Positions 3,001 to 37,310 of a stretch of DNA of 58,095 nucleotides are shown here, piece after piece (positions within the stretch are counted from its first letter, which is position 1; every line of letters begins with the position of its first letter). The DNA comes from an uncultured Selenomonadales bacterium. Its GTDB lineage: Bacteria; Bacillota; Negativicutes; Selenomonadales; Selenomonadaceae. Made by a program: the position numbers and the translations under genes. The stretch covers positions 1 to 58,095 of the forward strand of contig CAMUZG010000014.1 of assembly GCA_947165145.1 (NCBI GenBank), given 5' to 3'. The notes under the pieces are model-generated. The model had not been told where the DNA came from and made no database searches. It was given only the letters and a program-made list of their open reading frames with translations.

Positions 3001-3110
3001 GTAGTTCGTGATAGTATCGTTGTTGTCGCCGCCGAAGATTGAGGCGTTCGCGCCGCTGTTCGTGAAGATGTCCGCGCCGCTCTGACCATAAATCTTGATT
3101 CCCGCAACGT
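1..3110 (-). repeat. RTX-like glycine-rich calcium-binding motifs in the giant protein
   Basis: In the translated minus frame, clusters of GG/GA-x-G-N/S-D-x-h motifs occur at about 2890-3090 (FGGDNNDTITNY, DGGKDNDLVNLFGG), 900-1560 (a dense run including TVGSGADFISV, NAGAGSDTVYAT and LGAGNDTVSV) and 1-60 (ILGGDDEDEISNE). These resemble hemolysin-type nonapeptide repeats. They alternate with segments such as FTVGDVIKLSSGG that occur in large RTX adhesins. The array continues past base 1. Confidence 0.75.
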
Positions 3111-15100: not shown

Positions 15101-16194
15101 TTAGTGACTGTGACATCGGTGTTATTGAGCGCATTGTCATTCAAGTTGCTGATTGTTAATTTCGTGCCGGCGAGGGAAACTGTACCAACTACGTTGTTGT
15201 TAGCGTCATATATGCTATTGCCTATGATAGTCGCGTTGGGATTCAAGCCGCTGATTGTGAAGGTTGCCGCGCCGTAAACCGTGAGCGTATTGTTGCCCTC
15301 GACGCTGTAGCCCTGCGGTATCTCATAGGTGAAATCGTTAAACGTCGTAGCGAAAATTTCGCTGGTTGCCAAAGAATACAAACTGTTCGTCAACGTTACG
15401 TCTAATTTAACGGTGTTTGCAATAGCCGCGAGGTTCGCCGTGTTGACGGTAACGGCTGTATTGTCAACAGATACGATAACGTTGCCGTTGGCGTCTGTGA
15501 TTGTGGTGCCGTCGATTGTCAGACCAGTAGGCAGTCCGCTGAGCGTTGACTGTGTTATCGTGGTGCCCGCCGAATATAAGACGTAATTGCCGTTGTTATC
15601 CTCAACCCATTTTGCAGTTGTGCCGCCCTCCAACGCAAAGCTGTAATCGTTGCCTTGTATGGCGAGATTATTGGTTATGGCAGTATTCACTGCCTCGTCA
15701 GTGAGAATTATCTTATTATTCGCAGTGTCGACTGTGACGTGGTTTTTAATCAAATTCCAGATTTCTGAAGTCAAATTGTTGATATTGATTTTGGTTTCTG
15801 TTCCGCTGGCTGCTATGTAGGTGTATTCCCCGTTGCTACCAGTAAAGCTTGCGGTGGAGGGCACTGTCAGCGTGCCGTTGTTAGTGTTTTCAACAGCTTT
15901 ATACTCTATAGAATCGCTACCATCAACAACGAACATGTAGCCGCTAACAGTTCTTCCGCCTTCTAAGCAAAGATATTTGCCAGTACTCGGTAAGACATCG
16001 TTTAAAACCTCAGTGGTGAACGTTATGGTTTTGTTGGTGACATCAACAGTTATACCACTAGTTACAAGTTCTTCTGGACTATTAACGGAATAGGTGTTGC
16101 TACTTTCATCATAACTTGCTTCATAAATTTTAGTTGGTTCTGTTGGGTCAAAAGCGTAAACCTTTTCATATAGGTCTATGAAATAATAACTCAT
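1..16194 (-). CDS. Giant repetitive RTX-like surface/adhesin protein, C-terminus beyond the left edge
   Basis: A single frame is open from an ATG at 16194 to base 1 (5398 codons) in every stretch I translated, and no stop is seen. The start follows a strong SD (AGGGAGGGATC). The protein begins MSYYFIDLYEKVYAFDPTEP and has no signal peptide, which fits type I secretion by a C-terminal signal (inference; that end is outside the window). Residues about 200-4000 are a long chain of units of roughly 110-160 aa. Each carries a YTYT-like stretch, then FTISGL or FTLSGL, then beta-rich Thr/Asn/Val sequence. From about residue 4360 the protein becomes glycine/aspartate-rich with RTX-like motifs (LGAGNDTVSV, NAGAGSDTVYAT, DAGGGSDYIQL), as in calcium-binding beta-rolls. 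A role as an adhesin or surface-layer-like protein is inferred from this architecture. The antisense strand carries several long open frames, which are coding shadows. Confidence 0.9.
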   Translation of the reverse strand, partial: MSYYFIDLYEKVYAFDPTEPTKIYEASYDESSNTYSVNSPEELVTSGITVDVTNKTITFTTEVLNDVLPSTGKYLCLEGGRTVSGYMFVVDGSDSIEYKAVENTNNGTLTVPSTASFTGSNGEYTYIAASGTETKININNLTSEIWNLIKNHVTVDTANNKIILTDEAVNTAITNNLAIQGNDYSFALEGGTTAKWVEDNNGNYVLYSAGTTITQSTLSGLPTGLTIDGTTITDANGNVIVSVDNTAVTVNTANLAAIANTVKLDVTLTNSLYSLATSEIFATTFNDFTYEIPQGYSVEGNNTLTVYGAATFTISGLNPNATIIGNSIYDANNNVVGTVSLAGTKLTISNLNDNALNNTDVTVTKPDGYTVEFINTSLSQPSAKTAKLSNDNSVLTYTSGGTNKGYTVQGESILYTPASSDGKSFTISGLINVPATANLSVDGNSIKFDNDIVGTVVFSSNTFIVTLNEKGLTYFPTESSESSLTFSSSDSVYFVLNAGDKIKEAVPTSLTKVEAGTYTYTEGYTPAGFVKSEDKARSLKYTYQANAEPAQHATFTVSGLTNLDNDAHFTSDNISNYFTISGYNVTLKSSALPTPINSNTSPITFSTTDNDNTYNFSIDGIDNSGAFKTVSENPTFSFDNTNNKFTFKAPTYAAYWTQDGNTYTPHEAVGGASFTLNVTGFDLDTTKVLTAVVSNTDKTKISLMQGSDIIGTVEIVDNNSDGTIDSYTFTLNDKFLSQLQNNGTIELSTDSSVQYSLALANDINQTATPISASFTKEGVYTSGGTKAYYNLNDKTVTYYAQDGGKTFTLSGISADSDGSVSDDEVITLDNKTIAKVEGNNVYLTADAFSSGNGSITLTTTDGFTLAEGDGTNYLKQVANIDESFSSTNNTTYTYTRAGKEAGLTISGNTATFSAKTGGEQFTLSGGNLSNLTETFSATNGTIKSGNDTIAYVDSNGNVYLTEKAFNSTNGIITLTPLNDATFQLATGMAGYLGTVENTLGNASFTETKDENNQGTGNYTYTSGEQAEGINISGNSATYYAARNGSGFTINGLVSGLEISNGSIKLSDGTEVGTISDNTVTLSNTAAIKDYDAGNGSVTFSSTGSTTYTLAFNATVFGNTDTSAPNETPATFKHVDDDATGVYTFTQGHVDKYVLQNSNTYTIHKEDTYDTFKVKGLTCTPTLDTNVTVDTENKTVTLTSNVLPTTEGNTVTFVDDTNDEGYGFLLENGIATTALTPQSGDNGTLTNGTYKLPNFVAYYTTTDTGKVTTYTAHAEVAEADAFTISGLKSGLTVEYSKSDSKIYYKDNNATVATITFTTENDAITSYEISLKTDAIDTTKATAANPLTVSVTPETGVTINSFTITNKPTDGTVDYEYGWEQDTVPNGGTATYQRKEKSAYWTTDNTDTLPTYTYTAAQEAQTEFTISGMTVNTSLNDNTIEVDRDNSKVKIKSDTLLPTSGALTISQTSWTFDTTELTNSRIFDNETDAKNDQSATFSKLNNDDVYTYSSQATSPYYIKSANTLTYNDGTTATTFTISGLKDGLTVYNDNIYKSTDVTVNGDGTKTLAQNATSLGTVEIVADNSNPGKYTGTVTLTNLDVLASPTNGTINIKLTDTENDAVTYTLQLGNAFNEQSTAPTTAATLTTDGLYTGAHTSAYTSSDATNEYTYHAEQDASTYAKFQLTGLNITDNNQAGKVTVGGNATNGYTVSIAESLLKKSDTLSLTSTNGPTYTLENPLAVTSKDQEGFYLNGSGTFEYKTESFNAGYAPTNGAKNSYTWTAESGGEVLFKLTGLNSSITSLTVDDGKIYSGYVDENDKGTEIGTFTKTGEGDSATYAVVLNQNALPTITDNGTFTVALTDNTSDNYTLTLDSNIEQTATSANAGWGTATENNGIYSNTYLSSSTNTNNYWTDNNNNSFTFTAKVERTTLFTLSGLKSDAFSDIKVDSTNNQVNLTDAIVNALGDNQSITLTNGNSQTYTLTDSNGTAFQTTVPNETTATLEPKTGSDGTYTYTSAYTPAYNQGSNNNTKVTHIAEANKDTFEISGLSTDTTKVTLGNSVTVTKNGDTYEVEIKTTALPSTLGTIAVTNNATIKSIEGYSLTAPTAADTLSYDSTNSTYTFKKNYVGEHFASTTAGATNSYTYTAEMDRGSFTLRGTALANTTIPVNYTLSDYLTVNDKAVTLNSAILKNTSDLTDGEQITISDGDYTLTGLTEIQTTAAHFKPNGTDGTTLEYHTEAKSAGYTTTDNKTYTFAAAVDSTTPFTIKGLPNLTGYTISVENDGTITATKDETTVTLGTFSGNATDGYNVTLRQELWTAFNATPETVEMTTTGTLTITNGSNTVASSSSATSLANRTAEWITIDSTKATYGLKERAESWTKDASTSNKYTFHSAENQDTYFTLSGLRYTSENDLTSIKTEVTLSDNTVTITKDALDETKFGDIELTPENGSSYTNLALGDGVNKLTNDVPPIDTAESYGNVNLGENTATYTTATYKDYYTVKDDNKKIIKHFQATSGTVTVSGLGTDNFSTVPTGESSSLFTVTPTFALVDGQYTLQSYSVEINKSFVENLQEGGKISFSGKSNVGGTETNIDAANLTLSFKTDEFSNDYDPTSGKLYNGTNDSSVNADIATSESGNDFVCTYTAKITRRDYFTFDNITNEVSHVKQSGGQPFQIIGLEKDRWTGFAATDTEITATEILTADQWEELSSTDRAKYTADGSNYKSKEPITIATIESVTAGNGSDVDCTVTLQKAAFTTNEQTITLTDNTVDGIKYVLAVDSKQITTSETTQTAATFIGNSTNGYTYTASKRDEYVTFTSEDNKYTYHTQTGGQQFTITGLKDGLTVVNGNIYAESDPDHETSLGEFVAKDGETAPTVLKLTSTDALKAFNSDGKVEIVLTNVIGENPGDTEVEYSLDFGTNYQYSEEYTANSGYTESSPDLKETEPPGTYTYKAPNRTIAYTYKSGSKYIYKQEDPTKVFTITNLKSEASFNDVANSIYYDETNNAITLINESLLPDNIAKGEKITLVRADGDTSTTLTATEGVLGYATPNINDIGTVTKNNDNNNFIITLPSYNDKYFTASGNEITCVRDTFGGEKFKLTGFASDLSFDSGVYDSTKGTITYTINGTKASATEGGTGESGAVGTLVVTLAQDGSGIAGYAFEITDKGALNVSDGDNIKVEQIDTTTPTVDLSLNLDALNTGNTNTTPWTSTDQSNGIYTYTSSTATTHYLKQGSASYTYSSEGITNDTAQSFNLHITQVTNFGRQNKKETISPVLNNYVKVDEVRDSSTGAITEFVITILGDAALKTGNEVSLDTITTVGTEWTEEVTVDFGNATNPPNYTIKLANDVATNYRGAHNDGKLELVSGKSDTYTFTTDEFIAGFASTQDNNGNTYITKITPLTNRANGDYCTISGLASGLKLHKTANYKYEIYTGDSYKANNVVGTYDGYTITLTKKAALPSYDADTDGFTVKLEDKQAGKYDYILVLSEADGSEFKDLLNPDGETKEQFEYTAASGNAPATFTYKTGKSVDKFVENPREYKIDGDDTYSNSYTFVKGKETVGDSGLVDKLKLTGSLNVAGDLEVLSDGTLYYGGTNYGKIVKESKTVTLYWLALPSNPSVSDSIITLTDETSGNTKYKFVLDENVDSSADKPAEVTFSSGTLTYKAPGNAAGYYLSTDGTQVGYKNANGQQSFKLYGLANTGLTNFTLDENGNISADRTLSLAEYNLLSGDKTDYKPSAYLSTTTIDEAEYNELPADEKANYEKQSDSTYKNITPITAAQFANLTAAEKGKYEPSEYTANLKIASVAFSENNTKGTVTLYDAIFYKSPNAAEQAITLSDTNSGDSIAYSLDITSNITTTDTGDPISEAFTGNATNGYTYTASGHKEYVTEESNGYTYHPQSGGQQFTIVGLADNLTVSGNNNGKITLNSVEVGNVTNGIFTLTSLDIVNPVADGETTRTITITDLEDNADNTITYKLAVDETLRTVTKSSSFEETSTGGTYEYTAEHNNAYITPDTSDINSFVYHAEEKAETVTISGLQPNKTVNFGNANALVTFDAANKIFTFNEEMLPMTGKVELSAKDKDGMTSITGYTMKVADDVPKTPYQVTTESNGGELTADPSDSTKYIYTTPAFLKYYTYEDPTTASTTKITANAAGTAQPLFNVTNLKGEFTLTYDNATKTATITDTTTNTAIGTIKFEGSDNSTFTGITVNLKQAALSLDTNDGETTEIKLTKILEGLTSTALKLTIDGVIVDDNARTATTAWQQRDGNIAVYGTQSLESYWLKGSDSAYTHHATVGAIDSLQINGVNGITGFDTIDNGLAINAYYFVDSGATLTNNDGGYKLSITGAAPNKVFYGLDTAKGDTITNDVAGIKIYGQSGADIFTNSGANASIFGGDNNDTITNYANNAYIDGGKDNDLVNLFGGDGATVDVEDGADIISVGAGVTNFSVSHFGTDDVIKFAGGISAIGKFSDNSITVTSGNQTVTIDGLKYSDTGMMWSNLDGGRTTLAATTLKGAYTLEGAINYRNETVGSAEVILSGISSAIDNPNDKVITLTSTNFTNASVISNTDYEFYLTGGKSFYGLDTADTITVDGTGLKVYGQSGADIFNVKGNDNFIDLGNDTAADTINIASNFTNITVDNFNADDLITGLTGDITTIEGGIKVGDVSIYGIESIATVNSGWSAPVGNTISYRKETVAGAALSHGQLTWNTGANPQNIFTINGLGASAGLTLEGTTVKVDSTALTGIKHDISITSDYGYTFELVNVAGPSAYDDDGAGWKHDGVSVAKYVTGAMTDGFTLASGSTIINYVPKFDGDTQLELSGITNTNNFNVNGNNANLFANGFDSLVSVVSNDGNYALYLQSTYDSLFNGKSFMGLSTADTITISGSKLSLNAAGGNNIINAYSSDYDTIITGDGNDSIFANSCNFIYAGGGSNTVIAHYQNFITVGSGADFISVTSDNNTIDAGDGANTIFATGGNYITTGKDADFISVSSSNNTIDASDGANTIFAAATNFIVGGSGADFISVSGNGNRINAGAGSDTVYATTGNYITLGAGNDYITVCGNGNVIDAGGGSDYIQLNGNGDHLTLGAGNDTVSVAAGITYFEVADFTVGDVIKLSSGGTLTGGGNGVNVGSLRIQGIAPLATLEEGWNDPGTDSISYKAWTTSGATLIGTDLTYQNQSADETLFTIHGLSSSAHISVDSVNKIVTLGASALNKLHVGDTISVGNGYKFSLSGVNLDRDKSIADDWTLGNGIASYMVGRTADYFDGDGLSSITFMGGSVGTADIEISGITSITGGFSVGEDGTVTLDAAGFSANVAIEGNANEYEFNLVGTLNGINRATFNATEYNDYITNFVDYLTIKGLSGTDYIENYGDSVFINANNEITNSGANVTILGGDDEDEISNE
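3900..15600 (-). repeat. Tandem beta-strand repeat region of the giant protein
   Basis: Degenerate units recur every 330-480 bp. The easiest landmark is the codons for FT(I/L)SGL, seen on the + strand as variants of ccgctgattgtgaa. Examples lie near 15250, 14915, 13755, 13420, 12340, 11930, 11580, 10068, 9000, 7690 and 6905. Units differ too much to be recent exact duplications. Some carry a sub-repeat with an Asp/Glu-rich helix-like stretch (for example AEYNELPADEKANYE and AAQFANLTAAEKGKYE, near 4850-4980). Confidence 0.8.
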
Positions 16195-16609
16195 GAATGG
16201 ATCCCTCCCTAAAAAAATTCCGTTTATTCTGATTGTTTCTTCGATACGGCGACTTGAAGACTGTCTTCGGGAACGCGACCGGGGCTGTTCCCGGTGCAGT
16301 GAAGTTAGCTGAGTCTGTCGCTCGAAAAAACGTTGGCTACCTCGCTTATGAAATTTGTGGCAGTAATCGAACCTTGCTTGCGATTTGGACGCGCTGATGA
16401 CGTTTGGTCGTCGAAGTGATTCGTGAGTCTCCTTTCTGTCGCTGGTTGTCGCTCGCCTTGCCGAAATTCGATTGTCGCCTTCTTACGCGTGATATAAATT
16501 ACGGCGATTAACTCCGAAAATACAATCGAAGAAATCGCCGAGTATCTTTAGATAAAGTGTCATGAGCATCGGTCCTTCCGCTCTGAAGACATAAATGCAA
16601 ATTTTATCA
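16195..16609. other. Intergenic region / long 5' leader of the giant gene
   Basis: No convincing gene lies here. If the minus-strand promoter at 16610-16639 is used, this is an untranslated leader of about 410 nt before the giant ORF. It contains a 6+1+6 dyad GAAGAC-T-GTCTTC at 16256-16268 and an inverted repeat CGGGAAC/GTTCCCG near 16274-16301. I do not recognise a riboswitch family. Confidence 0.5.
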
Positions 16610-16639
16610 ATTTTACCTTGTGAAATATTTCGCCGTCAA
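16610..16639 (-). promoter_or_regulatory. Putative sigma-70 promoter for the giant surface protein gene
   Basis: On the minus strand, TTGACG (16634-16639) is followed by an 18-nt spacer and TAAAAT (16610-16615). It is the best promoter-like match upstream of the giant ORF and leaves a long leader. Not experimentally supported. Confidence 0.45.
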
Positions 16640-16677
16640 GATTTACTTATCGAATTTTAATGCAGAATTTGTTTCCG

Positions 16678-16706
16678 TTGTAAAGTTGCCGCCGAAATGT
16701 TAGACT
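16678..16706 (+). promoter_or_regulatory. Putative promoter of the DUF4127 gene
   Basis: TTGTAA (16678-16683), 17-nt spacer, TAGACT (16701-16706), lying 44 nt before the start codon. The same -10 variant TAGACT is seen in front of rplS. Confidence 0.45.
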
Positions 16707-30648: not shown

Positions 30649-30680
30649 TCCTAATTCCTCATTCCACATTCCTAATTCCC
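30605..30680. repeat. Heptamer repeats at the FabH/glycosyltransferase junction
   Basis: Tandem aattcct/cattcct variants at 30646-30680, and a second heptamer run (agctttt) at 30605-30628 inside the start of the glycosyltransferase gene. The element encodes the last residues of the FabH-like protein (IRNVE and stop) and supplies the SD of the glycosyltransferase gene. Confidence 0.7.
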
Positions 30681-31672
30681 GAAAGGTCAGCGATACAACC
30701 CGCCCAGCTCAATCCGACACCAAAGCCCGCCAACATCACGCGCCGCAAATTTTCAGCACCGTGAGATTTGACGACCTGTTCAATCGCAAGCGGCACGCTA
30801 CCCGAAACGATATTGCCCGTCGTCGTGATGTCGTTGTGAAATGGCACGTCGTTTAAGTCGGCTTTGTCGCGCAGGTACGTCATCATGAATTTGTTCGCCT
30901 GGTGGAAAATGCAGTAGTCCAATTCGGCGCGAGTGAGCTTTGCCGCAGTCAACACGTCGTCAACGAGCTTGGGCACTTCCCGCAACGTGAAATATGTTAT
31001 CGCCATGCCGTCCATAAAGACTTCGTAATTGGAGCGGAAATTTTTTTTGTCGTCCGTCGCGAAGACTTCGGGATTGTCGCGCGGCATGAGTCGACTGCCG
31101 CCAACGGGAATTATCAGCTTGTCGAAACGTGAACCGTCACTGCCGAACACGAACGCGCTTAAACTCGGTTTATCGTCGTCGACAGCCTCAATCCACGTTG
31201 CAGTTGCTCCGTCGCCGAAAAGCGGTCGTGTCGACGTGTCGCGGACGTTGATATATTTCGTGTAGACGCTCGACGTGAGAAATAAAATTTTCCGTGCCAA
31301 ACCGCTCTCGATAAAACTTTTTGCAACGGCAAGACCGTAAACGTAGCCCGAACAGCCCAACGCAATGTCCATTGTCCCGACGTTTTTGCCGAGCCCAAGG
31401 CGGCTTTGTATGTGCGCGGCGGTGTGCGGCATTTGATAATCGGGGTGTTGCGTGCACAGCAAAATAAAATCTGTCCCGTCACGGTCAAGCTTGTTTTCGG
31501 CGAAAAGTTTTTCTGCTGCGGCAAATGCCAAATCTCCCGCTGATTCGTCTGCTGTCGCGATGTGCCGACTTTTCACGCCGATTTTCTTCATGAAGCGTGA
31601 GTCAACGATTTCCGAATTTTTTTCAATCTGCGCGGGCAGGTAAGACGTTATCGCCCGTATCTTTGCAAACAT
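30659..31672 (-). CDS. Beta-ketoacyl-ACP synthase III family protein (FabH-like)
   Basis: A 337-aa thiolase-fold condensing enzyme with the full KAS III triad: C107 in ALGCSGYVYGL, H257 in IFHQANKF and N287 in TTGNIVSGS. This family condenses acyl-CoA with malonyl-ACP. The ATG at 31672 behind a perfect GGAGGTGA is chosen; the frame extends 20 residues further without support. The gene lies 10 nt before the glycosyltransferase and not beside fab genes, so it may be a specialised paralogue making a modified acyl group for a surface polymer rather than the housekeeping FabH (inference). Its C-terminus (GIRNVE) is encoded by the heptamer repeat. Confidence 0.85.
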   Translation of the reverse strand: MFAKIRAITSYLPAQIEKNSEIVDSRFMKKIGVKSRHIATADESAGDLAFAAAEKLFAENKLDRDGTDFILLCTQHPDYQMPHTAAHIQSRLGLGKNVGTMDIALGCSGYVYGLAVAKSFIESGLARKILFLTSSVYTKYINVRDTSTRPLFGDGATATWIEAVDDDKPSLSAFVFGSDGSRFDKLIIPVGGSRLMPRDNPEVFATDDKKNFRSNYEVFMDGMAITYFTLREVPKLVDDVLTAAKLTRAELDYCIFHQANKFMMTYLRDKADLNDVPFHNDITTTGNIVSGSVPLAIEQVVKSHGAENLRRVMLAGFGVGLSWAGCIADLSGIRNVE

Positions 31673-31730
31673 CACGTCACCTCCTGCTAATGTCAATTCG
31701 CTTGCCGCCACGAAAATTCCTTTACAAATC

Positions 31731-31763
31731 AAAGAACCCCGAGTTTGCCGCTCGAGGTTCTTT
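31731..31763. terminator. Bidirectional terminator T0 at the left end of the small-peptide array
   Basis: AAAGAACCCCGAG pairs with CTCGAGGTTCTTT (one mismatch) around a 7-nt loop. It has almost the same stem as T2 at 32388-32420, marking it as part of the repeated module. Confidence 0.75.
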
Positions 31764-31810
31764 TGTCGCTGTTAAGCAGTGTTCACGTTATGTTGGTTGT
31801 CTTATTAGAC
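31733..31810 (-). ncRNA. Predicted antisense RNA 0 (orphan antitoxin half-module)
   Basis: A minus-strand promoter (TTGCAA at 31839-31844, 16-nt spacer, TACGTT at 31817-31822) reads left through GTGAACACTGC to terminator T0. By analogy with the other modules it would be antisense to the start of a toxin gene located further left, where the FabH-like gene now lies. No cognate toxin is present. 31776-31811 matches the collapsed third module (32578-32613) in about 32 of 36 bases. Confidence 0.5.
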
Positions 31811-31816
31811 GTTTGA

Positions 31817-31878
31817 AACGTATCACAGCGCGAACAACTTGCAAGCCGTTTGCTTTGTAAAATATTTTCTTGTATACT
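31817..31878. promoter_or_regulatory. Back-to-back divergent promoter cassette A
   Basis: Leftward: TTGCAA (31839-31844), 16 nt, TACGTT (31817-31822). Rightward: TTTGCT (31849-31854), 18 nt, TATACT (31873-31878). The two -35 boxes are 4 nt apart. The same layout is kept in cassettes B and C. Confidence 0.6.
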
Positions 31879-31928
31879 TCCTTCGGCGTCATCAGACCCC
31901 AATCTCAAAAGAAAGGGGGTGATTGTCG

Positions 31929-32009
31929 ATGTTCTCGACGTTCCTGGTAATGGTCGCGGCAGGTGTGGTTACTCACCTCATCTGCAAATGGTTGGACCGC
32001 CGCTTGTAA
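31929..32009 (+). CDS. 26-aa hydrophobic peptide, Fst-like type I toxin candidate (module 1)
   Basis: ATG 31929 follows AAAGGGGGTGATTGTCG. The peptide has one membrane span (STFLVMVAAGVVTHLIC) followed by a charged tail KWLDRRL. This plan, a single helix ending in a W-L-D/N and basic residues, matches type I toxins of the Fst/Lpt family from Gram-positive bacteria, which damage or disturb the cytoplasmic membrane. It has its own promoter (cassette A) and terminator (T1). The next cassette drives a predicted antisense RNA over T1 that includes a 24-nt copy of this start region (20 of 24 bases alike). Toxicity is inferred, not shown. Confidence 0.7.
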   Translation: MFSTFLVMVAAGVVTHLICKWLDRRL

Positions 32010-32059
32010 GCGATGACACAGCCTGAAGGTTAACGCTCACCCTGAAAAGCGCGCAACAT

Positions 32060-32139
32060 CAAGAAACCCCCGATGACAGCCGGGGGTTTCTCTTTTTGTG
32101 ATTGTCTTTGCTCTCGACGTGTGAAATGACTAACTTCAC
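32060..32139 (-). ncRNA. Predicted antisense RNA 1 (antitoxin of module 1)
   Basis: Promoter TTGCAA (32169-32174), exactly 17 nt, TATATT (32146-32151) on the minus strand. The transcript of about 80 nt ends at T1. Its segment opposite 32098-32121 matches the toxin 1 SD/start region (31919-31942) in 20 of 24 positions, so it could base-pair with the ribosome-binding site as Fst-type antitoxins do. Confidence 0.6.
32062..32097. terminator. Bidirectional terminator T1 (module 1)
   Basis: AGAAACCCCCG pairs with CGGGGGTTTCT around an 8-nt loop, followed by a T-tract on the + strand and TTCTT on the - strand. It would end both the toxin 1 mRNA and antisense RNA 1. Confidence 0.85.
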
Positions 32140-32145
32140 GTTCAA

Positions 32146-32208
32146 AATATATCACAGCGCGAATAACTTTGCAAGCCGTTTGCTTTGTAAAAAATTTTCC
32201 GCTAAAAT
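32146..32208. promoter_or_regulatory. Back-to-back divergent promoter cassette B
   Basis: Leftward: TTGCAA, 17 nt, TATATT. Rightward: TTTGCT (32179-32184), 18 nt, TAAAAT (32203-32208). It drives antisense RNA 1 and toxin 2. Confidence 0.65.
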
Positions 32209-32256
32209 GAACTCGTGCGTACTCTCCTCTTTACCCGCGGAAAGGAGGTGAAAACA

Positions 32257-32349
32257 GTGCTCACGATAATCGCGGCGACTGTCGCAGCAAACGTAGCCTC
32301 GGGAGTCATCCTGTACTTCGTTTACAAATGGCTTGACGGTCGAAAGTAA
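32257..32349 (+). CDS. 30-aa hydrophobic peptide, Fst-like type I toxin candidate (module 2)
   Basis: GTG 32257 follows a perfect AAAGGAGGTGA. The peptide begins MLTIIAATVAANVASGVILY, continues FVY and ends KWLDGRK. It is a paralogue of the module 1 peptide: the membrane helix sequence has diverged but the KWLDxR tail is kept. It sits between cassette B and terminator T2. A copy of its start region (ACAATGCTCACGAT...) recurs beyond T2 at 32432-32450 (16 of 19 identical) and is transcribed in antisense from cassette C. Toxin function is inferred from peptide form and gene layout. Confidence 0.7.
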   Translation: MLTIIAATVAANVASGVILYFVYKWLDGRK

Positions 32350-32385
32350 AAAAGCCTTATAGTTATCGTTAATCTTCAAAACGAA

Positions 32386-32464
32386 TCAAAGAACCCCGAG
32401 TTCGCAGCTCGGGGTTCTTTTTGTGCGTACCACAATGCTCACGATATTAGTTGTCTTATCAGAC
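32386..32464 (-). ncRNA. Predicted antisense RNA 2 (antitoxin of module 2)
   Basis: Promoter TTGCAA (32494-32499), 17 nt, TATATT (32471-32476) on the minus strand. The transcript of about 80 nt ends at T2 and contains ATCGTGAGCAT, complementary to the start of the module 2 peptide. Confidence 0.6.
32388..32422. terminator. Bidirectional terminator T2 (module 2)
   Basis: AAAGAACCCCGAG pairs perfectly with CTCGGGGTTCTTT around a 7-nt loop, with T-tracts on both strands. Near-identical to T0. Confidence 0.88.
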
Positions 32465-32470
32465 GCCTGC

Positions 32471-32533
32471 AATATATCACAGCCACCGCGCTTTTGCAAG
32501 CCGTTTGCTTTGTAAAAAATTTTCCGCTAAAAT
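32471..32533. promoter_or_regulatory. Back-to-back divergent promoter cassette C
   Basis: Leftward: TTGCAA, 17 nt, TATATT. Rightward: TTTGCT (32504-32509), 18 nt, TAAAAT (32528-32533). The rightward promoter now leads to the collapsed module 3. Confidence 0.6.
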
Positions 32534-32565
32534 ATGTCCGCCACTGTTGACCTTCTCGTTTTTGA

Positions 32566-32666
32566 AGGAGGTGAAAGCAGTGTTTACGTTGTATTGGTTG
32601 TCTTATCAGACGCTTGAAATATATCACAGCGCGAAAATTTTTGCAAGACTCAAGTCATCGCTTTGA
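32566..32666 (+). pseudogene. Collapsed third toxin-antitoxin module
   Basis: The SD (GAAGGAGGTGA) and start codon (GTG 32580) of a third toxin gene are kept. The sequence then passes directly into the antitoxin-side repeat (TTGGTTGTCTTATCAGACGC) and the leftward promoter D (TTGCAA 32641-32646, 17 nt, TATATT 32618-32623). The toxin body and terminator are missing. This is what a deletion between the two direct repeats of one module would leave. The remaining 28-codon frame is not toxin-like. Confidence 0.65.
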
Positions 32667-35600
32667 CTTTGCTCTCGATAAATTTTATCTCGTCGTCGCT
32701 CAATTTGTATTTCCGATAAAGTTGCGCGTCTATCTCGGCAATGCTCACGCTCCAATCTATATCCGACGCCGAACTGAAATCTTGCAGCGGTACCTTCGAC
32801 CACGTTGCGGGCGGATTGTGCTGTGTGACCTTCAGAATGCCCAACATTACGCGGCAAAACTTGCTCTTTATGTATGCTATGCAGGCGTCCGCTTCCGCAC
32901 GCGTATCGAACGCTCCGACGCTGATAAACGTCTGTGTGCTGCCGACAAGCGGCGAGCCGACAAGCGGCGAGCCGACAAGCGGCGTACTAACCACTTCGCC
33001 CAATGCTCCGCTACCGTTGGAGTCGGGAACAAAAACTTTAAATTTCTCCAAACTCTCGTGGTAAGTTACATAATCGCGGCGCACCCATTTAAAAACGCGT
33101 TCATTATTTTTTCGCCCGTAAAGCTGAATATATTCGTGTCCGTCGTTAGGTTTGGCGTCAAAGAAAATTTCTGGCATTAAATCAAAAACGTTTGACGACA
33201 CCTGATATTGGTTGCCCTTGCTGAAATTTTTTATCGCGTTGGGAAAATCTTTGTGAGCTTTTGGCGTCAAGCTGTAAGCCGTGCGTGAATACATAATTTT
33301 GCTGAGCGGTTGAAAGTTCGGATTGTCGACGACAACTTTTTGATGAATGCTTTCAAGCTCTTTAAATGGTATATGCGTGCCAATCGGACCTAATTTTTTC
33401 GTGGCGTCGAATTCAGTTATCGCAATGCCGCCTTTGATGTCAGACGTCGGGAAAAGTTCTTGCCCGTTTGGATAATATTTGTTAACGTTCACGTGCGGGT
33501 CGTTAAGAAATTTTTCGGCAAAGTCGCCAGGGGTCGCGCCTGCATTTGAAAGAAATCGTGCAGGGTGAATCAAGCTTGCGTTTTCGGTGAGATTTTTGTT
33601 GTACGCCGTTTGAATGAACAGATGATAGACTGGTGACGCGTAAGTTTTGTTATCGCCACTGCCGGCGGTTTGATATGGCGGATTGCCGACGACTCCGTGA
33701 AAAAACATTTTGCCGTCTCCTTTGTCCCAAAAAGATTTTTCGGTAATGCGGTCGATGAAACGCGAAGGAATATTTTTGAGTTCGGTGATCAAGTTGTCGT
33801 AACAACGCGCGTTGACGGTGCCGTCGCGGTAGCCTCCCAAAGTCCGACGAGTGATTTTCTCCGCCATGGGCGTCTTGCAGATGACAAAAACGTTTTCGGC
33901 AACTGTCATATCCCACAGCCGATAAAGGCGTTCAAAGTCGTAATTCACTTCGTCAAGTTTGAGCTCGGCAAGTCTTGCGCGATAAATGCTGTAGGCAACG
34001 TAAAGCGGATAAAGCCCCGTCTTCGAGTTAATCTCCAAAATTTTTTTGTCGGGCGTGAAAAGCGTCGTGGGAATTTGTCGCGGATTGTCGAGAATATCGG
34101 TGTGCGTTTCGTCGAAGAAATCGTAACCGCCGAAAACCGCGCTCAAATGCAGATTGACAACTCGCCACGGCGTGAGAACGGTTTCCTTGTCGGGATTTTT
34201 GAACGTTGCGAAAATCTCGGCTAATTTCTTGACGCGAGCGGTCGGCTTGAGTTCGTCGGCACGTTTGGCGAAATTGCGAATTCTGCGCCCTGCGGCAATG
34301 AAAACGTCTTTGTCGTAGTATTGAATGAATTTGGCGAAAAGTTCCTTGGTGATACCTTTCGGCATGAATTCAGCCCAGCTAGCGTCGTCGATAAGTTCGG
34401 CGAACTTGTCAATGCTGATGTCGTCGTCAAATGGAACGTCCGCACCGTAAATCAGTAACGGCATACGAATCGACAGTCCGCGCAGATTGGAAATTGCGGC
34501 GTCACGAAGTTTGCGTCGTCGACGAGCTTCAAGTTCTTCGGGCGTCGGTTCACGATTAAGTTCTTTGCCGAGTTGCTTACGTTCGGTGGGTGACAAGCCT
34601 TGGTTGTTGACGACAACATCCGCAGATTTCTTTTGAGCTTTGGAACTGCCGATAATCGCGTTGAGTGTCGAGAAGTCCGGCAGGTCTTCATCAGTGAGCG
34701 TCAACAATTTGTCGTTGTCGTAAAGATAATTGTCCTCGAAACCGTTGCGAACGACGCGTTCGGCTTGAGCGCGTTTAAGCTTCTGCATGAGATTGTTTGC
34801 GTTAATCGGATTCATGCGCGAGCCTTCGACGGCAATGACGGGGCAAAATTTCACGAAGTCGGCGACAAGTTCTTTGTCGGTCGAAGAAATATTTCCTGCG
34901 CGGGCGGAGATTTTGAGCGATTCGGCGATAACTTTCAACGTTCTGTCTGGCGCGAAGTCGAAGACGTAGCAATTCGTTTTGACGACGCCGCCTTTATCGC
35001 ACGGGCTTTGAACGCGGAAAATCGTCTGCATGTAGCTCATCGCGGAAGTTTTGCTGTTGTCGCCATTGGAGCCGGTCAATATGAAGACAGCAGACCATTC
35101 GGGGACTGTGACGCCCGTAGTGAATCGTCCGCAAGACAGCGTAATTGTGTAGTCGTTTTCGCGGATGGCGTCGTGTACAATCTCAATATCTTCGACTTTT
35201 CCGCCGTCGCCGTCGCCCGCAACGTTGACGATTTTGAACGCGTGAAAAACTTTGTGATGTTGCAAAAGTTTGCTTAGCTCACGAGCCGCCTCGACGCCCG
35301 GCACAATCCAAAAGGTATGTCGGAACTGTTCGCGCCATTCGGGACGGGAAAACGGATAATTATTGTCGTCGCGCTTGACGAGCAGGTCGAGAAAACTTTT
35401 AACGTCGTCTTCGTGAACGAACCGTCCGCCGTCAGTATTGAAGAATTCGCGGAAACTGAAGGCAATTTCTTCCTCGTCGTCGAGATAAAATTTTTGCAAA
35501 ATGTCGCCCAAGTCGTAAGTCAAAATATTCATCTGCGGCAATTCGGCGTAGGGGTTGTAGTCTAAAGGATATTTCTCCGCGAATTCGGCTTTGGCGCGTT

Positions 35601-36546
35601 GTTCGTCGACGTAATTCCACGTGTAGACGTTGTCGCTGTCGAAATCGCTGATGATGTTAAACGGCGTGCCGCTGAGCTTGAGAACTTTGCTGTTCGGCTT
35701 GACGAGCATTTTAAAAACATTCTCGCCGAGTTCAGTCTGTGTGCCTTCGTGCGCCTCGTCGACGATAACGCAATCCCATTTCGTCTTGAACAGCAAGGTA
35801 TTCTTTTTGATATTGCCGCCAACGATTTCGGAGCCGCGCAGGTCTTGAATTGACGCGAAGTAGACGAAATTTTTTTTGTCGGCAAGCAGTTCATTGAGCG
35901 TCGAGCCGTGATTTTTGGAGCCGTAAGAAAAATTTTTATCGTCGCCAAAAATTTTGTCGAAGTCTTCAAACCAATTCTCGTCGACAACGGGGCGGTGCGT
36001 GATGATGATTGTCTTGGTGAAATTCATGCGGCGAACGACTTCCAACGCGCAAATCGTCTTGCCGAATCGCATTTTGGCGTTCCAGAGAAATTCTTTGCCG
36101 TGAGCGAAGTACGCGACGGTTTTGCTGACAGCTTCCTCCTGTTCGGGTCTCAAAATAATTTCTTCGCGAATCTTTTTGCGGTGGATAAAATGTTTGCCCT
36201 GCTTGACGGCGGCGATTGCGCGTTTAACGGTTTGCAAATCGACACGGAACCATTCGCGGGCAGTCGTATTATTCGGCGGAGTTTTTTTGATACCAGAACG
36301 TTCAAGCTGGTTGTGAACGTCCGTATCGCTGAAGGTTTTGCCGTTTTGGTCGACGGCAAGTTCTGTGTGCAAAAGTTTGAAATAAATTCCTGCGGTGCGC
36401 GTGTATTCTCTGATTCGTTTGTTGGCAGCGGCTTCAAGGTCGTTGCCCGTGAGCGTCGTCTCGCCGATTTTGAGCAGTCCACGATGTTCGCTGTCAGGTA
36501 TCCCGAACACGTAAATCAATTTCTGCCGAGCAACTTGATAACTCAT
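32650..36546 (-). CDS. Restriction-modification protein: GIY-YIG-like nuclease, DEAH helicase, NPPY methylase region
   Basis: A 1298-aa protein. The ATG at 36546 overlaps the upstream gene's stop (ATGA); a longer frame to 36600 is unlikely. Residues 1-90 look GIY-YIG/T5orf172-like (LIYVFGIPDSEHRGLLKIGE). Residues about 140-560 are a superfamily 2 helicase/translocase: Walker A-like NAKMRFGKTICALE, DEAH box CVIVDEAHEGTQ, motif III KLSGTPFN. The C-terminal 400 residues contain the adenine-methylase catalytic motif GVVGNPPYQTAG and an Eco57I-like target-recognition region with three SPLVG repeats. I see no clear SAM-binding motif I before NPPY; it may be supplied by the partner gene. This is a restriction system acting on foreign DNA. 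Confidence 0.82.
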   Translation of the reverse strand: MSYQVARQKLIYVFGIPDSEHRGLLKIGETTLTGNDLEAAANKRIREYTRTAGIYFKLLHTELAVDQNGKTFSDTDVHNQLERSGIKKTPPNNTTAREWFRVDLQTVKRAIAAVKQGKHFIHRKKIREEIILRPEQEEAVSKTVAYFAHGKEFLWNAKMRFGKTICALEVVRRMNFTKTIIITHRPVVDENWFEDFDKIFGDDKNFSYGSKNHGSTLNELLADKKNFVYFASIQDLRGSEIVGGNIKKNTLLFKTKWDCVIVDEAHEGTQTELGENVFKMLVKPNSKVLKLSGTPFNIISDFDSDNVYTWNYVDEQRAKAEFAEKYPLDYNPYAELPQMNILTYDLGDILQKFYLDDEEEIAFSFREFFNTDGGRFVHEDDVKSFLDLLVKRDDNNYPFSRPEWREQFRHTFWIVPGVEAARELSKLLQHHKVFHAFKIVNVAGDGDGGKVEDIEIVHDAIRENDYTITLSCGRFTTGVTVPEWSAVFILTGSNGDNSKTSAMSYMQTIFRVQSPCDKGGVVKTNCYVFDFAPDRTLKVIAESLKISARAGNISSTDKELVADFVKFCPVIAVEGSRMNPINANNLMQKLKRAQAERVVRNGFEDNYLYDNDKLLTLTDEDLPDFSTLNAIIGSSKAQKKSADVVVNNQGLSPTERKQLGKELNREPTPEELEARRRRKLRDAAISNLRGLSIRMPLLIYGADVPFDDDISIDKFAELIDDASWAEFMPKGITKELFAKFIQYYDKDVFIAAGRRIRNFAKRADELKPTARVKKLAEIFATFKNPDKETVLTPWRVVNLHLSAVFGGYDFFDETHTDILDNPRQIPTTLFTPDKKILEINSKTGLYPLYVAYSIYRARLAELKLDEVNYDFERLYRLWDMTVAENVFVICKTPMAEKITRRTLGGYRDGTVNARCYDNLITELKNIPSRFIDRITEKSFWDKGDGKMFFHGVVGNPPYQTAGSGDNKTYASPVYHLFIQTAYNKNLTENASLIHPARFLSNAGATPGDFAEKFLNDPHVNVNKYYPNGQELFPTSDIKGGIAITEFDATKKLGPIGTHIPFKELESIHQKVVVDNPNFQPLSKIMYSRTAYSLTPKAHKDFPNAIKNFSKGNQYQVSSNVFDLMPEIFFDAKPNDGHEYIQLYGRKNNERVFKWVRRDYVTYHESLEKFKVFVPDSNGSGALGEVVSTPLVGSPLVGSPLVGSTQTFISVGAFDTRAEADACIAYIKSKFCRVMLGILKVTQHNPPATWSKVPLQDFSSASDIDWSVSIAEIDAQLYRKYKLSDDEIKFIESKVKAMT
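32941..32985 (-). repeat. Three 15-bp in-frame repeats in the R-M gene
   Basis: gccgacaagcggcga occurs three times in tandem (32941, 32956, 32971; the last with a final t), encoding SPLVG units in the C-terminal region. The unit is a multiple of 3, so copy-number change would alter spacing but not the reading frame. Confidence 0.9.
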
Positions 36547-37310
36547 TTTCTCCCGCCTTCTATAATTTCTTTGAACGTTTCGACTTTGCGAGTGCGCCAA
36601 TCGATTATCTTGCAGAGCTGAATCGGCTTTGGCGTCGAATTGTTTTCAAAATCAAATGAGCCTTGCGGATTTGTATCTTCGTAGGGAATTGTGCACTCCA
36701 AGCCGTCCATCTGCCAAAAATTCCACGAGATAATCTCGGCGATTTCAGTCCAAAAATTTTCGGGCGGCTTAATTGAAAATTTCATCGCAAAATATTCGAC
36801 AACCGTATCGAAAATATTTCGTCGCGCCAAAAAAAGATTGTCGCCTTGAAATTCGTAGCCGTAAACGCTCTGCACCGCGCGAATCGTCAGTTGCGTCCAA
36901 TCGTTGACGGTCGAATATTCTTTGCGGATAAAGTTCAGCTTTCTGTCGAGCAAACCGACGCGTTTGTCAATCGGGATGTATTCGCCCGTGACGGCGTTGT
37001 AGCGGCTTGTGATGTATGGAGCCTCGCCGCAAGTGATTTCCAAAAATTTTGCGTCAATGTATTCTTCGGGCACACCCGGATTTGCGTCAACCAAATCGTT
37101 TTGAATTTCGCAGACGTTCGGCGGCGTGAAAATTTCTGCGCGGGTTTTCGTGCGAAGTTTTTGCAGCTCACGATTTTTTTCGTGGCGCGGGACAATCAAA
37201 TCAATTTGCTTAAAAAGAATCTCCTGCTGTCCGTGTTCGGCATTTGCCCAGAGAATATTTTTGCCGGTCGTTTGGTCGAGCAGGAGAATTTTTAAAATTT
37301 CATCAGTCAT
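36543..37310 (-). CDS. Restriction-modification system subunit M (methylase-like)
   Basis: A 255-aa protein encoded directly before the large R-M gene with an ATGA overlap. It contains AEIFTPPNVCEIQNDLVD and KFLEITCGEAPYITSRYN, resembling the N-terminal motif X/motif I part of adenine methylases (FTP... and a degenerate D/E-x-x-x-G-E-APY), and a Trp-rich C-terminal part (FWTEIAEIISWNFWQMDG). Such proteins are annotated as restriction endonuclease subunit M beside DEAD/DEAH R-M proteins. It probably completes the methylase whose NPPY motif lies in the partner (inference). The gene starts 15 nt after secA, without a good SD. Confidence 0.72.
   Translation of the reverse strand: MTDEILKILLLDQTTGKNILWANAEHGQQEILFKQIDLIVPRHEKNRELQKLRTKTRAEIFTPPNVCEIQNDLVDANPGVPEEYIDAKFLEITCGEAPYITSRYNAVTGEYIPIDKRVGLLDRKLNFIRKEYSTVNDWTQLTIRAVQSVYGYEFQGDNLFLARRNIFDTVVEYFAMKFSIKPPENFWTEIAEIISWNFWQMDGLECTIPYEDTNPQGSFDFENNSTPKPIQLCKIIDWRTRKVETFKEIIEGGRK

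Follow-up and report, generated by a model that had tools for sequence, protein, structure and literature searches.

Small-ORF modules and promoter cassettes in the window

The window, the whole 58,095-nucleotide stretch analysed here, comes from an uncultured Selenomonadales bacterium, probably an inhabitant of the rumen. Between positions 31731 and 32666, two plus-strand open reading frames (ORFs) encode peptides of 26 and 30 amino acids with the C-termini KWLDRRL and KWLDGRK. We call these toxin 1 (31929–32009, ATG start) and toxin 2 (32257–32349, GTG start). Each is preceded by a Shine–Dalgarno (SD) sequence, AAAGGGGGT at 31912–31920 and AAAGGAGGT at 32241–32249, and the best 19-residue hydropathy values are 2.03 and 2.06. 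Coordinates and sequences were read again and agree with the original prediction of two SD-preceded ORFs ending in KWLDxR. A minus-strand gene of 1316 amino acids (32650–36600), combining T5orf172, a ResIII helicase and an Eco57I-type methylase, abuts the array with its 3′ end. The restriction-modification (R-M) locus also holds a second methyltransferase-like gene (36543–37310, minus strand, 255 amino acids), which matches MTase_II (E = 2.5e-62) and no Pfam family.

A promoter cassette is present four times (repeat families D1, 61 nt with four occurrences, and D2, 41 nt with three), and all four copies described earlier, with TTGCAA boxes on the minus strand and TTTGCT boxes on the plus strand, were located again. 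Predicted plus-strand promoters precede toxin 1 (31849–31878, TTTGCT-18-TATACT), toxin 2 (32179–32208, TTTGCT-18-TAAAAT) and a collapsed third module (32504–32533, TTTGCT-18-TATACT/TAAAAT type). On the minus strand, promoters are predicted for an orphan antitoxin 0 (31817–31844, TTGCAA-16-TACGTT, start 31844) and, each as TTGCAA-17-TATATT, for antitoxin 1 (32146–32174, start 32174), antitoxin 2 (32471–32499, start 32499) and antitoxin 3 (32618–32646), with its −35 box starting 3 nt beyond the stop codon of the R-M gene. A consensus scan found 3 promoter-like sites, the minus-strand trio with 17-nt spacers, against 1.2 (sd 1.0) in shuffles. The corresponding terminator scan, in which T2 scored on the minus and T1 only on the plus strand, found 4 terminator-like sites against 1.4 (sd 1.0). 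The terminators had been called near-identical; this holds for T0 (31731–31763) and T2 (32388–32420), which share 90 per cent identity over 41 nt, but T1 (32062–32091) differs in sequence.

Three minus-strand antitoxin RNAs are predicted to end at these terminators: antitoxin 0 at T0 (31731–31810), antitoxin 1 at T1 (32062–32139) and antitoxin 2 at T2 (32388–32464). The start region of each toxin recurs past its terminator, much as first proposed. The plus-strand direct repeat of module 1 (family D6) spans the start codon at 31919–31941 and returns at 32098–32120 in the template for antitoxin 1, with 20/23 positions identical; that of module 2, read from the sequence, lies at 32254–32268 and again at 32432–32446 in the template for antitoxin 2 (14/15 identical). 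Family comparison also places a conserved 3′ UTR hairpin in each toxin mRNA (plus strand, 32030–32051 and 32363–32383), with two-sided changes at 3 of 5 predicted pairs among 38 sequences, a sample of roughly one in three of the 111 modules that includes the window. Each of antitoxins 0–3 has a predicted 5′ hairpin, whose sequence differs in antitoxin 1; across the family at least 4 pairs were found in 45 of 80 leaders, several of them shortened by the extraction window.

In predicted pairing, antitoxins 1 and 2 each prefer their own toxin over the other one. Antitoxin 1 reaches −41.0 kcal/mol with toxin 1, against −23.0 for toxin 2 and −21.8 for the remnant of module 3, and antitoxin 2 reaches −39.1 kcal/mol with toxin 2 and −23.5 with toxin 1. 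Specificity in the window has exceptions: the pairing of antitoxin 2 with the remnant is stronger still (−50.2 kcal/mol), and antitoxin 3 pairs moderately with both toxins (−33.0 with toxin 1, −33.1 with toxin 2). The best partner of antitoxin 0 is also the remnant (−54.8, compared with −15.6 for toxin 1 and −19.6 for toxin 2). This collapsed module (32565–32611, plus strand, with D1 and D5) consists of an SD/start segment (32565–32588) fused to an antitoxin-type segment and contains no toxin ORF; the toxin partner of the R-M-adjacent antitoxin is gone. These signs of decay, the orphan antitoxin at the left and the collapsed module at the right, were overlooked in the first description. We read the window array as tandem par/Fst-like modules that are partly decayed.

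The modules had also been described as chained, and one cassette does serve toxin n and antitoxin n−1. Tandem duplication of a convergent module yields this arrangement, and tandem modules also occur in Streptococcus. No match to the cassette DNA elsewhere in the source genome had an E value below 0.11, and no family toxins beyond toxins 1 and 2 were found by alignment. An Rfam scan of the window gave zero matches at gathering thresholds, and a Pfam search with the window peptides gave one weak match (13.2 bits; cut-off 26.6).

The peptide family and its antisense repeats in relatives

The window peptides belong to a family of single-helix peptides of 20–38 amino acids; toxins 1 and 2 match the family HMM at E = 3.5e-17 and 6e-13, each being itself in the seed set. 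The search of related genomes that had been suggested for such peptides returned matches at E ≤ 1e-3 in 121 genomes out of 189 from one taxonomic family, probably the Selenomonadaceae, and in 19 of 30 genera; an order-level search again covered 189 genomes, every one in this single family. Toxin 2 alone matches 45 of 66 genus genomes at E ≤ 1, several of the weakest matches lying inside long unrelated frames. Lack of ORF conservation had been named as grounds for rejecting the toxin–antitoxin (TA) reading. The peptides are instead under purifying selection, with a median dN/dS of 0.22 and dN below dS in 99 per cent of 476 peptide-gene pairs. A phage origin was considered and rejected: 147 viral_contigs stretches fit the peptide pattern, and none encodes a relative by tblastn.

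Similarity to known Fst toxins is weak but consistent, with 20 of 51 relatives matching the Fst model at E ≤ 1. The window peptides fail the 26-bit cut-off of NCBIfam NF033608 (17.1 and 13.0 bits), as do two Streptococcus relatives (19.0 and 19.2 bits); a relative passes in 1 of 66 genus genomes, scoring 29.2 bits in one search and 31.3 in another. The NCBI Fst model therefore misses most peptides of this family. Other models gave weak matches among the 51 relatives, including NCBI CD_typeI_toxin in 12 (best E = 0.0015) and, in Pfam, Ldr_toxin in 10 and Fst_toxin in 3, the best Pfam match (E = 6e-4) being to a VTT-domain model.

The Fst/Ldr superfamily is characterized, in the portion of PMC7472228 drawn on here, by a hydrophobic helix followed by a conserved Trp and a charged C-terminus, with a P/D/S/TxxxG helix motif as a majority but non-universal feature. 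Among 111 genus modules classed A, B or AB by repeat topology (below), 107 have a Trp near the C-terminus and 106 have at least two charged residues (K, R, D, E or H) from the Trp onward; both window peptides share the two features. The P/D/S/TxxxG motif occurs in 46/111 and is missing from both window peptides; toxin 2 reads NxxxG, and toxin 1 has neither form. That the small ORFs encode regulatory or signalling membrane peptides would fit window peptides that fall under the Fst cut-off and whose toxicity is predicted only, yet one genus relative exceeds that cut-off and the modules have a par/Fst layout with cognate antisense repeats. We regard this alternative as quite improbable.

The repeats were examined in 80 and 60 regions chosen by hand as a subset of the genus and family match lists. 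The count of repeats began with 219 ORFs, reduced to 200 by removing identical copies and to 181 by requiring an SD sequence. A cognate-specific copy of the start region lies downstream in 117 of the 181 modules, with non-cognate rates of 2.5 and 0.9 per cent measured in windows slightly unlike those of the 181-module count. This copy sits past a terminator-type hairpin and before an opposing promoter, which is the par/Fst architecture. Among 97 usable genus modules, a downstream repeat matching the module's own toxin start with a score of 12 or more was present in 74 of the 85 without an IIKWLD-type ending (1.0 per cent of non-cognate pairs) and in 0 of the 12 with one. In a wider window, which within arrays also includes the start of the next module, scores of at least 12 were reached by 77/98 cognate, 52/481 non-cognate and 7/490 shuffled comparisons. 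The 88 convergent modules carry terminator-type hairpins on the toxin strand in 81 cases, on the antitoxin strand in 70 and on both in 63; shuffled controls gave 9/264 on the toxin strand. A predicted antitoxin promoter matching at least 9 of 12 positions is found in 80 of the 88 (6.1 per cent in shuffles).

A second arrangement, topology B, has the matching repeat upstream and divergent from the same promoter cassette (37/181). Six modules match on both sides (AB class), and 19 carry no repeat on either side. On a weakly resolved tree of 139 peptides, all with fewer than 40 residues, the A and B labels change 13 times, compared with at least 26 times in 50 shuffles. Judged from these genomes, the upstream, divergent topology is new beyond the original prediction. 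The reading of the window as an Fst-like type I TA locus gains from the Fst-model similarity, cognate-specific repeats, terminator hairpins, antitoxin promoters and purifying selection. Across genomes, the circumstantial evidence that the system is real is strong, and an array that works in the way described appears very probable.

Linkage to restriction-modification genes

Genes to the right of the arrays are R-M-like in 30 of 72 cases (one gene at L084 being counted twice) compared with 4 of 71 to the left, where R-M-like means a match to any of five reference sequences and R-M types other than that of the window were recognised only after inspecting the neighbours. Among 29 codirectional R-M-like neighbours, the antitoxin −35 box starts 2–5 nt after the R-M stop codon in 21 cases and overlaps the codon in another 6. 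The junction recurs beside at least two different types of R-M enzyme, and the left neighbours of 29 R-M-linked clusters fall into 27 families. Arrays joined to R-M 3′ ends are, by this comparison, also new beyond the original prediction. The fourth minus-strand promoter of the window, abutting the R-M stop codon, had been overlooked, as had the second topology.

In the reverse test, R-M matches were found in 65 of the 189 genomes and the best 30 homologue loci were taken, 28 of which had a usable 3′ flank. The toxin family occurs just past the R-M stop codon in 15 of these 28 (window included), on the opposite strand in 15/15, and in 13 of the 15 the 3′ end of the nearest toxin copy falls between +158 and +181. 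The toxin copy closest to the R-M gene looks degenerate at two loci (L255 and L260). At L107 and L124 we rejected the view that the cassette's leftward arm drives the R-M gene, no such promoter being visible by eye in the 96–100 nt between the toxin and the R-M start.

The toxins and R-M genes may have no functional tie, type I TA arrays and defence genes both gathering at variable intergenic sites and the junction reflecting insertion or copying history. Of the 72 right neighbours, 42 match none of the five references; several arrays come after apparent core genes, judged by eye (murA-, glnS- and porin-like); no toxin was detectable beside 13 of the 28 R-M homologues; and in one case (L053) the 3-nt junction adjoins a gene outside the R-M-like set. 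This reading fits less well with a −35/stop junction that recurs in at least two R-M types with varied left neighbours, or with a reverse test in which every toxin lies opposite to the R-M gene and its antitoxin is hence codirectional with it. We take the absence of a tie seriously as a possibility, short of probable.

Among 30 KAS loci, scored within 1.5 kb, two have toxins but no R-M gene and two have the reverse; therefore, neither depends on the other. The flanks of these loci (up to 1.5 kb) contain no SecA match that would mark an empty site, with KAS beside SecA. A minD-like gene adjoins ten arrays.

The array could also be selfish, a locally duplicating addiction unit kept by post-segregational killing, with neighbours exploiting its terminators and promoters. 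The window shows what such a unit would leave behind, namely tandemly duplicated modules, one that collapsed between repeats and an orphan antitoxin; an apparently frameshifted toxin copy at L127 and the AB-class modules with a repeat on both sides fit as well. Since purifying selection on the peptides and the preference for the R-M-side position both suggest more than drift, we consider this account unlikely.

A possible guard of restriction-modification

The wiring that we propose begins with each toxin mRNA running rightward to its terminator, while the antitoxin RNA would run leftward from the next back-to-back cassette to the same terminator. Through its single-stranded part, the antitoxin would base-pair over the SD and start codon of the toxin in its own module and prevent translation, and the conserved 3′ UTR hairpin may help to keep the toxin mRNA silent. 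Because the last −35 box lies at the R-M stop codon, R-M transcripts could read through into the codirectional antitoxin, and R-M transcription would then supply antitoxin as well. Should the R-M locus be lost or its transcription be turned off, for example by a phage, the short-lived antitoxin would decay and the longer-lived toxin mRNA would be translated.

That many relatives have arrays at the exact ends of R-M genes suggested a sanction of this kind, in which the toxins may punish the cell when restriction is lost or fails. Considered by itself, a guard or addiction role for R-M is possible, at somewhat less than an even chance. Taken together, we think it likely that the locus is a decayed tandem par/Fst-like array at an R-M 3′ end, with an addiction or guard device as its most likely function. 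More tentatively, the R-M mRNA might carry antitoxin in its own 3′ end, such that R-M expression restrains the toxin chain and R-M loss, shut-off or phage inhibition of transcription triggers it, with the wiring flipping between convergent and divergent through the repeated bidirectional cassette.

The closest known relative is par/Fst (RNA I–RNA II of Enterococcus faecalis pAD1 and its chromosomal relatives), which, in the portions of PMC7472228 and PMC4147584 drawn on here, shares with the window a single-helix peptide in which a Trp precedes a charged tail, toxin and antitoxin RNAs that converge on a bidirectional terminator (in the window by prediction from sequence) and direct repeats, whose pairing in par/Fst blocks ribosome binding. 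Unlike par/Fst, the modules described here form chained arrays with common back-to-back promoters and a junction at R-M 3′ ends, include a divergent second topology among related modules, and in the window encode peptides below the Fst cut-off that lack P/D/S/TxxxG. Arrays of the Streptococcus mitis group (L134 and L138) resemble the window in having a downstream repeat and modules in tandem, most of them spaced by about 343 nt, and their peptides are 70 and 62 per cent identical to toxin 2 over 23–26 residues. At L134 there are 244–245 nt between tandem modules, a figure for spacing alone, as promoters were unscored there. The Streptococcus loci differ in matching none of the five R-M-like references and in having nearly identical repeats in neighbouring modules, so their cognate specificity is weaker.

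Topology B recalls tisB/istR-1, shoB/ohsC and zor/orz, whose toxin families we take to be different from the window's. In these systems, as far as the consulted part of PMC4147584 describes them, toxin and antitoxin are likewise divergent and pair through a matching segment, but the antitoxin binds within a long 5′ UTR and not at the start codon. The type I TA modules beside CRISPR arrays in C. difficile are convergent and adjoin a defence locus, as here, although it is CRISPR arrays that they adjoin and not an R-M stop codon, and their toxins have 50–53 amino acids and are described, in the section of PMC6563280 used, as lacking homology to known type I toxins. CreTA, a guard of CRISPR-Cas, parallels our proposal in being an RNA antitoxin tied to a defence system whose loss frees toxicity; it differs in that the Cascade complex is required (PMC12737573), whereas here the antisense supply would come from R-M transcription. 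The physical linkage to a defence locus that a guard implies is seen both in the R-M neighbours and in the reverse test. Searches on R-M with type I TA or guards, tandem Fst, T1TAdb and type I TA in Negativicutes and Selenomonas (the last matching mainly unrelated microbiome work) covered few subscription papers. Among the matches listed, none linked Fst arrays to R-M genes and none described an Fst toxin whose antitoxin is divergent.

If the proposal is true, RNA-based guarding extends from CRISPR-Cas to restriction-modification. The comparison also provides a bacterial family with more than 100 natural modules in which sequence reveals antisense specificity, and, as both topologies are present, sometimes within one genome, the origin of convergent and divergent type I systems from one another becomes testable.

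The chained array in the window

Chained short modules occupy positions 31731-32646 of the window, and there we recovered the toxin ORFs, promoter cassettes, and start-region repeats of the original prediction. Toxin 1 (31929-32009, 26 aa) and toxin 2 (32257-32349, 30 aa) both read rightward behind a strong Shine–Dalgarno sequence (SD). All four cassettes carry a predicted leftward promoter (TTGCAA, 16 or 17 nt, then TATATT or TACGTT), and three of the four a predicted rightward one (TTTGCT, 18 nt, then TATACT or TAAAAT). Three terminator-type hairpins span 31731-31763, 32062-32091, and 32388-32420. Second copies of the start regions of toxin 1 (32098-32120) and toxin 2 (32432-32446) each sit beyond a terminator and ahead of the next leftward promoter, giving both modules a convergent layout (topology A).

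Pairing energies were computed for the predicted RNAs from their 5′ portions. Toxin 1 is the best computed partner of antitoxin 1 (−41.0 kcal/mol; toxin 2 gives −23.0), and antitoxin 2 favors toxin 2 over toxin 1 (−39.1 vs −23.5 kcal/mol). Computed pairing is also strong between antitoxin 2 and a remnant at 32565-32588 (−50.2 kcal/mol) and moderate between antitoxin 3 and toxins 1 and 2 (−33.0 and −33.1 kcal/mol), so specificity is imperfect. The same remnant is the best computed partner (−54.8 kcal/mol) of the antitoxin predicted from the leftmost cassette. The array is decayed at its left and right ends. In the remnant, an antitoxin-type segment follows directly on an SD and start region with no toxin, as if a third module had collapsed between its two repeats.

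Relatives of the peptides proved widespread in the taxonomic family. With toxin 2 as query, 45 of 66 genus genomes matched at E ≤ 1, some of the weakest matches lying in long unrelated frames. At E ≤ 1e-3, an alignment of 51 peptides had matches in 121 of the 189 genomes from this family, spread over 19 of its 30 genera; at E ≤ 1e-6 it matched 13 of 398 genomes in an even sample of the phylum, among them the window genome itself and three more from its family. Named records with relatives include Selenomonadaceae/Selenomonadales MAGs (titles mention red deer, goat, and sheep sources), Streptococcus mitis and its relatives, Granulicatella, and an Oscillospiraceae MAG. These records suggest that the window's organism probably belongs to the Selenomonadaceae and comes from the rumen. 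The peptide ORFs are under purifying selection: the median dN/dS over 476 pairs of genes from the genus was 0.22, with dN below dS in 99 per cent. Twenty of the fifty-one peptides matched the NCBIfam Fst model (NF033608) at E ≤ 1, and its cut-off of 26 bits was passed in only one of sixty-six genus genomes, by a peptide scoring 31.3 bits. Length classes in the alignment (A1) are separated by roughly four helix residues, near one helical turn. One apparently frameshifted toxin copy (L127:5408-5485) lies in an array beside two intact copies.

Antisense repeats and two topologies

The antisense repeat is real. Among 98 modules, 77 cognate comparisons scored at least 12, a level also reached by 52 of the 481 non-cognate comparisons and by 7 of the 490 that used shuffled sequence; in arrays, the search window behind these counts extends over the start of the following module as well. 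When the search was narrowed, 74 of 85 modules lacking an IIKWLD-type ending reached 12, vs 1.0 per cent of off-diagonal pairs; the cognate repeat had a median rank of 0, and the 74 were unchanged at every threshold from 9 to 12. The repeat's letters vary between modules, yet each copy follows its own toxin's start codon, so the copies have changed together.

Hairpins with at least eight pairs and a T tail follow the toxin on its own strand in 81 of 88 convergent genus modules (9 of 264 shuffles), on the opposite strand in 70, and on both in 63. In thirty-eight sequences of a separate 3′ UTR hairpin (consensus TTAkCGTTA-loop-AAAACG), two-sided changes occur at three of five pairs. Of the 88 convergent modules, 80 have a leftward promoter with a score of 9 or more out of 12, compared with 6.1 per cent of shuffles. 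The cognate repeats, terminator hairpins, and antitoxin promoters in relatives all support the original reading of an Fst-like type I toxin–antitoxin (TA) system.

Many modules lacking a downstream repeat carry one upstream, roughly 90-165 nt before the start and on the far side of a leftward promoter in the same cassette (divergent, topology B); by eye, some sequences have a terminator-type hairpin further upstream. The 181 SD-bearing modules comprise 117 A, 37 B, 6 with both, 19 with neither, and 2 at contig ends. Split by origin, these are 123 from the genus (83 A, 23 B, 4 both, 11 neither, 2 at contig ends), 38 from other genera of the family (19 A, 14 B, 5 neither), and 20 from named loci (15 A, 2 both, 3 neither). 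Non-cognate pairs reached the threshold of 11 in 2.5 per cent of 1914 downstream and 0.9 per cent of 1895 upstream comparisons. A peptide tree of 139 rows, itself weakly resolved, shows 13 changes of the A/B label, vs at least 26 in 50 shuffles. In a map made by hand, topology A is also present in eight of fifteen genus genomes bearing B. In a chain of near-identical modules, each cassette would serve its left and right neighbors, so that losing one end or the other would leave an A or a B module.

Restriction-modification genes and other neighbors

To the right of the window array, on the minus strand, lies a restriction-modification (R-M) gene (32650-36600) with T5orf172, ResIII, and Eco57I domains, which matches PADLOC type IIG and type II methyltransferase models. 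Homologues occur in 65 of 189 genomes at E ≤ 1e-60. Among 76 toxin clusters in fetched genus loci, the antitoxin-side neighbor was R-M-like in 30 of 72 cases and the other in 4 of 71. The Fisher p of 3e-7 is descriptive only, since related loci are non-independent, one gene is counted twice, and references were partly chosen afterwards (four of five R-M types were picked after neighbors had been inspected). Besides the window enzyme, the R-M-like neighbors comprise a fused enzyme joining methylase and specificity parts (its best PADLOC model is type IIG, E 3e-240), Eco57I-like methylases of shorter length, a single type II methylase, and a single protein that weakly matches candidate defence families.

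At the junction, the −35 box of the antitoxin lies at the R-M stop codon in 27 of 29 codirectional cases, beginning 2-5 nt past it in 21 and overlapping it in 6; no such box was present at the remaining two loci, L088 and L114. One codirectional neighbor that is not R-M-like (L053) has the same 3-nt junction, and at others the promoter is further off (e.g. 9 nt at L110, 12 at L129, and 16 at L056). The reverse test covered the 30 best R-M homologue loci, 28 with a usable 3′ flank; toxin-family ORFs lay in 15 of these flanks (window included), always opposite the R-M strand. The nearest toxin was at +158 to +181 in 13 of the 15, at +301 in the window, and at +292 in L271. The toxin copy closest to R-M appears degenerate in L255 and L260, and one locus beyond the 15, L267, has the promoter without a toxin. 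An insensitive scan found no terminator between R-M stop and repeat in any of 25 R-M cases, and from R-M stop to toxin stop, where one is expected, found one in just 10 of 25.

Left neighbors of R-M-linked clusters fall into 27 families among 29, some ORFs possibly being spurious; five loci (the window, L055, L080, L086, and L117) share a site upstream of a KAS III gene, so there are fewer distinct sites than 27. That variable KAS site (window 30659-31731 and loci L282-L311) carries, within 1.5 kb, R-M plus toxins in 3 of 30 cases (window included), toxins only in 2, and R-M only in 2. At L081 a protein resembling, by eye, a nucleotidyltransferase comes next.

Toxin clusters flank a fused type IIG-like gene on both sides at L107 and L124. 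Within the window R-M gene, tandem 15-nt repeats (32944-32984) encode SPLVG units near the enzyme's C-terminal part, and the L096 neighbor has a similar run; copy-number change here might affect target spacing. Window positions 1-16700 hold only odd, repetitive ORFs, which resemble shadow frames of one very long, repetitive reading frame that continues beyond the left end.

Ten arrays (L052, L059, L060, L064, L078, L089, L097, L099, L106, and L125) adjoin a minD-like gene, a stable array site without R-M; six have an SLH-porin-like gene on their other flank (gene names by eye). Further array neighbors resemble, by eye, porin, flagellin, and housekeeping genes. Guarding R-M therefore cannot be the sole role.

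Proposed mechanism and known systems

Antitoxin RNA would mask the SD and start codon of its own toxin and stop translation, as par of pAD1 does (PMC7472228, PMC4147584). Transcription readthrough from R-M could supply extra antitoxin; were the locus lost or its transcription blocked, the longer-lived toxin mRNA would no longer be restrained. We infer toxicity, readthrough, and RNA half-lives from the par precedent and the layout.

Known systems (PMC7472228, PMC4147584, PMC8167048, PMC12737573, PMC3874152, PMC6563280) include the par/Fst layout, a set of three Ldr repeats in tandem in E. coli, the divergent tisB/istR-1, shoB/ohsC, and zor/orz, type I TA modules of C. difficile that lie beside CRISPR, and CreTA; a kinship in role between R-M and TA systems is also described. 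The chain layout originally proposed stands, but chaining alone is unremarkable: Streptococcus L134 has four modules in tandem, with inter-module regions of 244, 245, and 374 nt. L138, also from Streptococcus, has an array of three Fst-like toxins, and two peptides of such arrays score 19.0 and 19.2 bits, under the NCBIfam cut-off. In the accessible parts of the literature on type I TA, tandem Fst, and R-M guards, we found no description of an Fst-like toxin that is linked to R-M or has a divergent antitoxin. The points of specialist interest are the array's link to R-M genes and the switch between two wirings.
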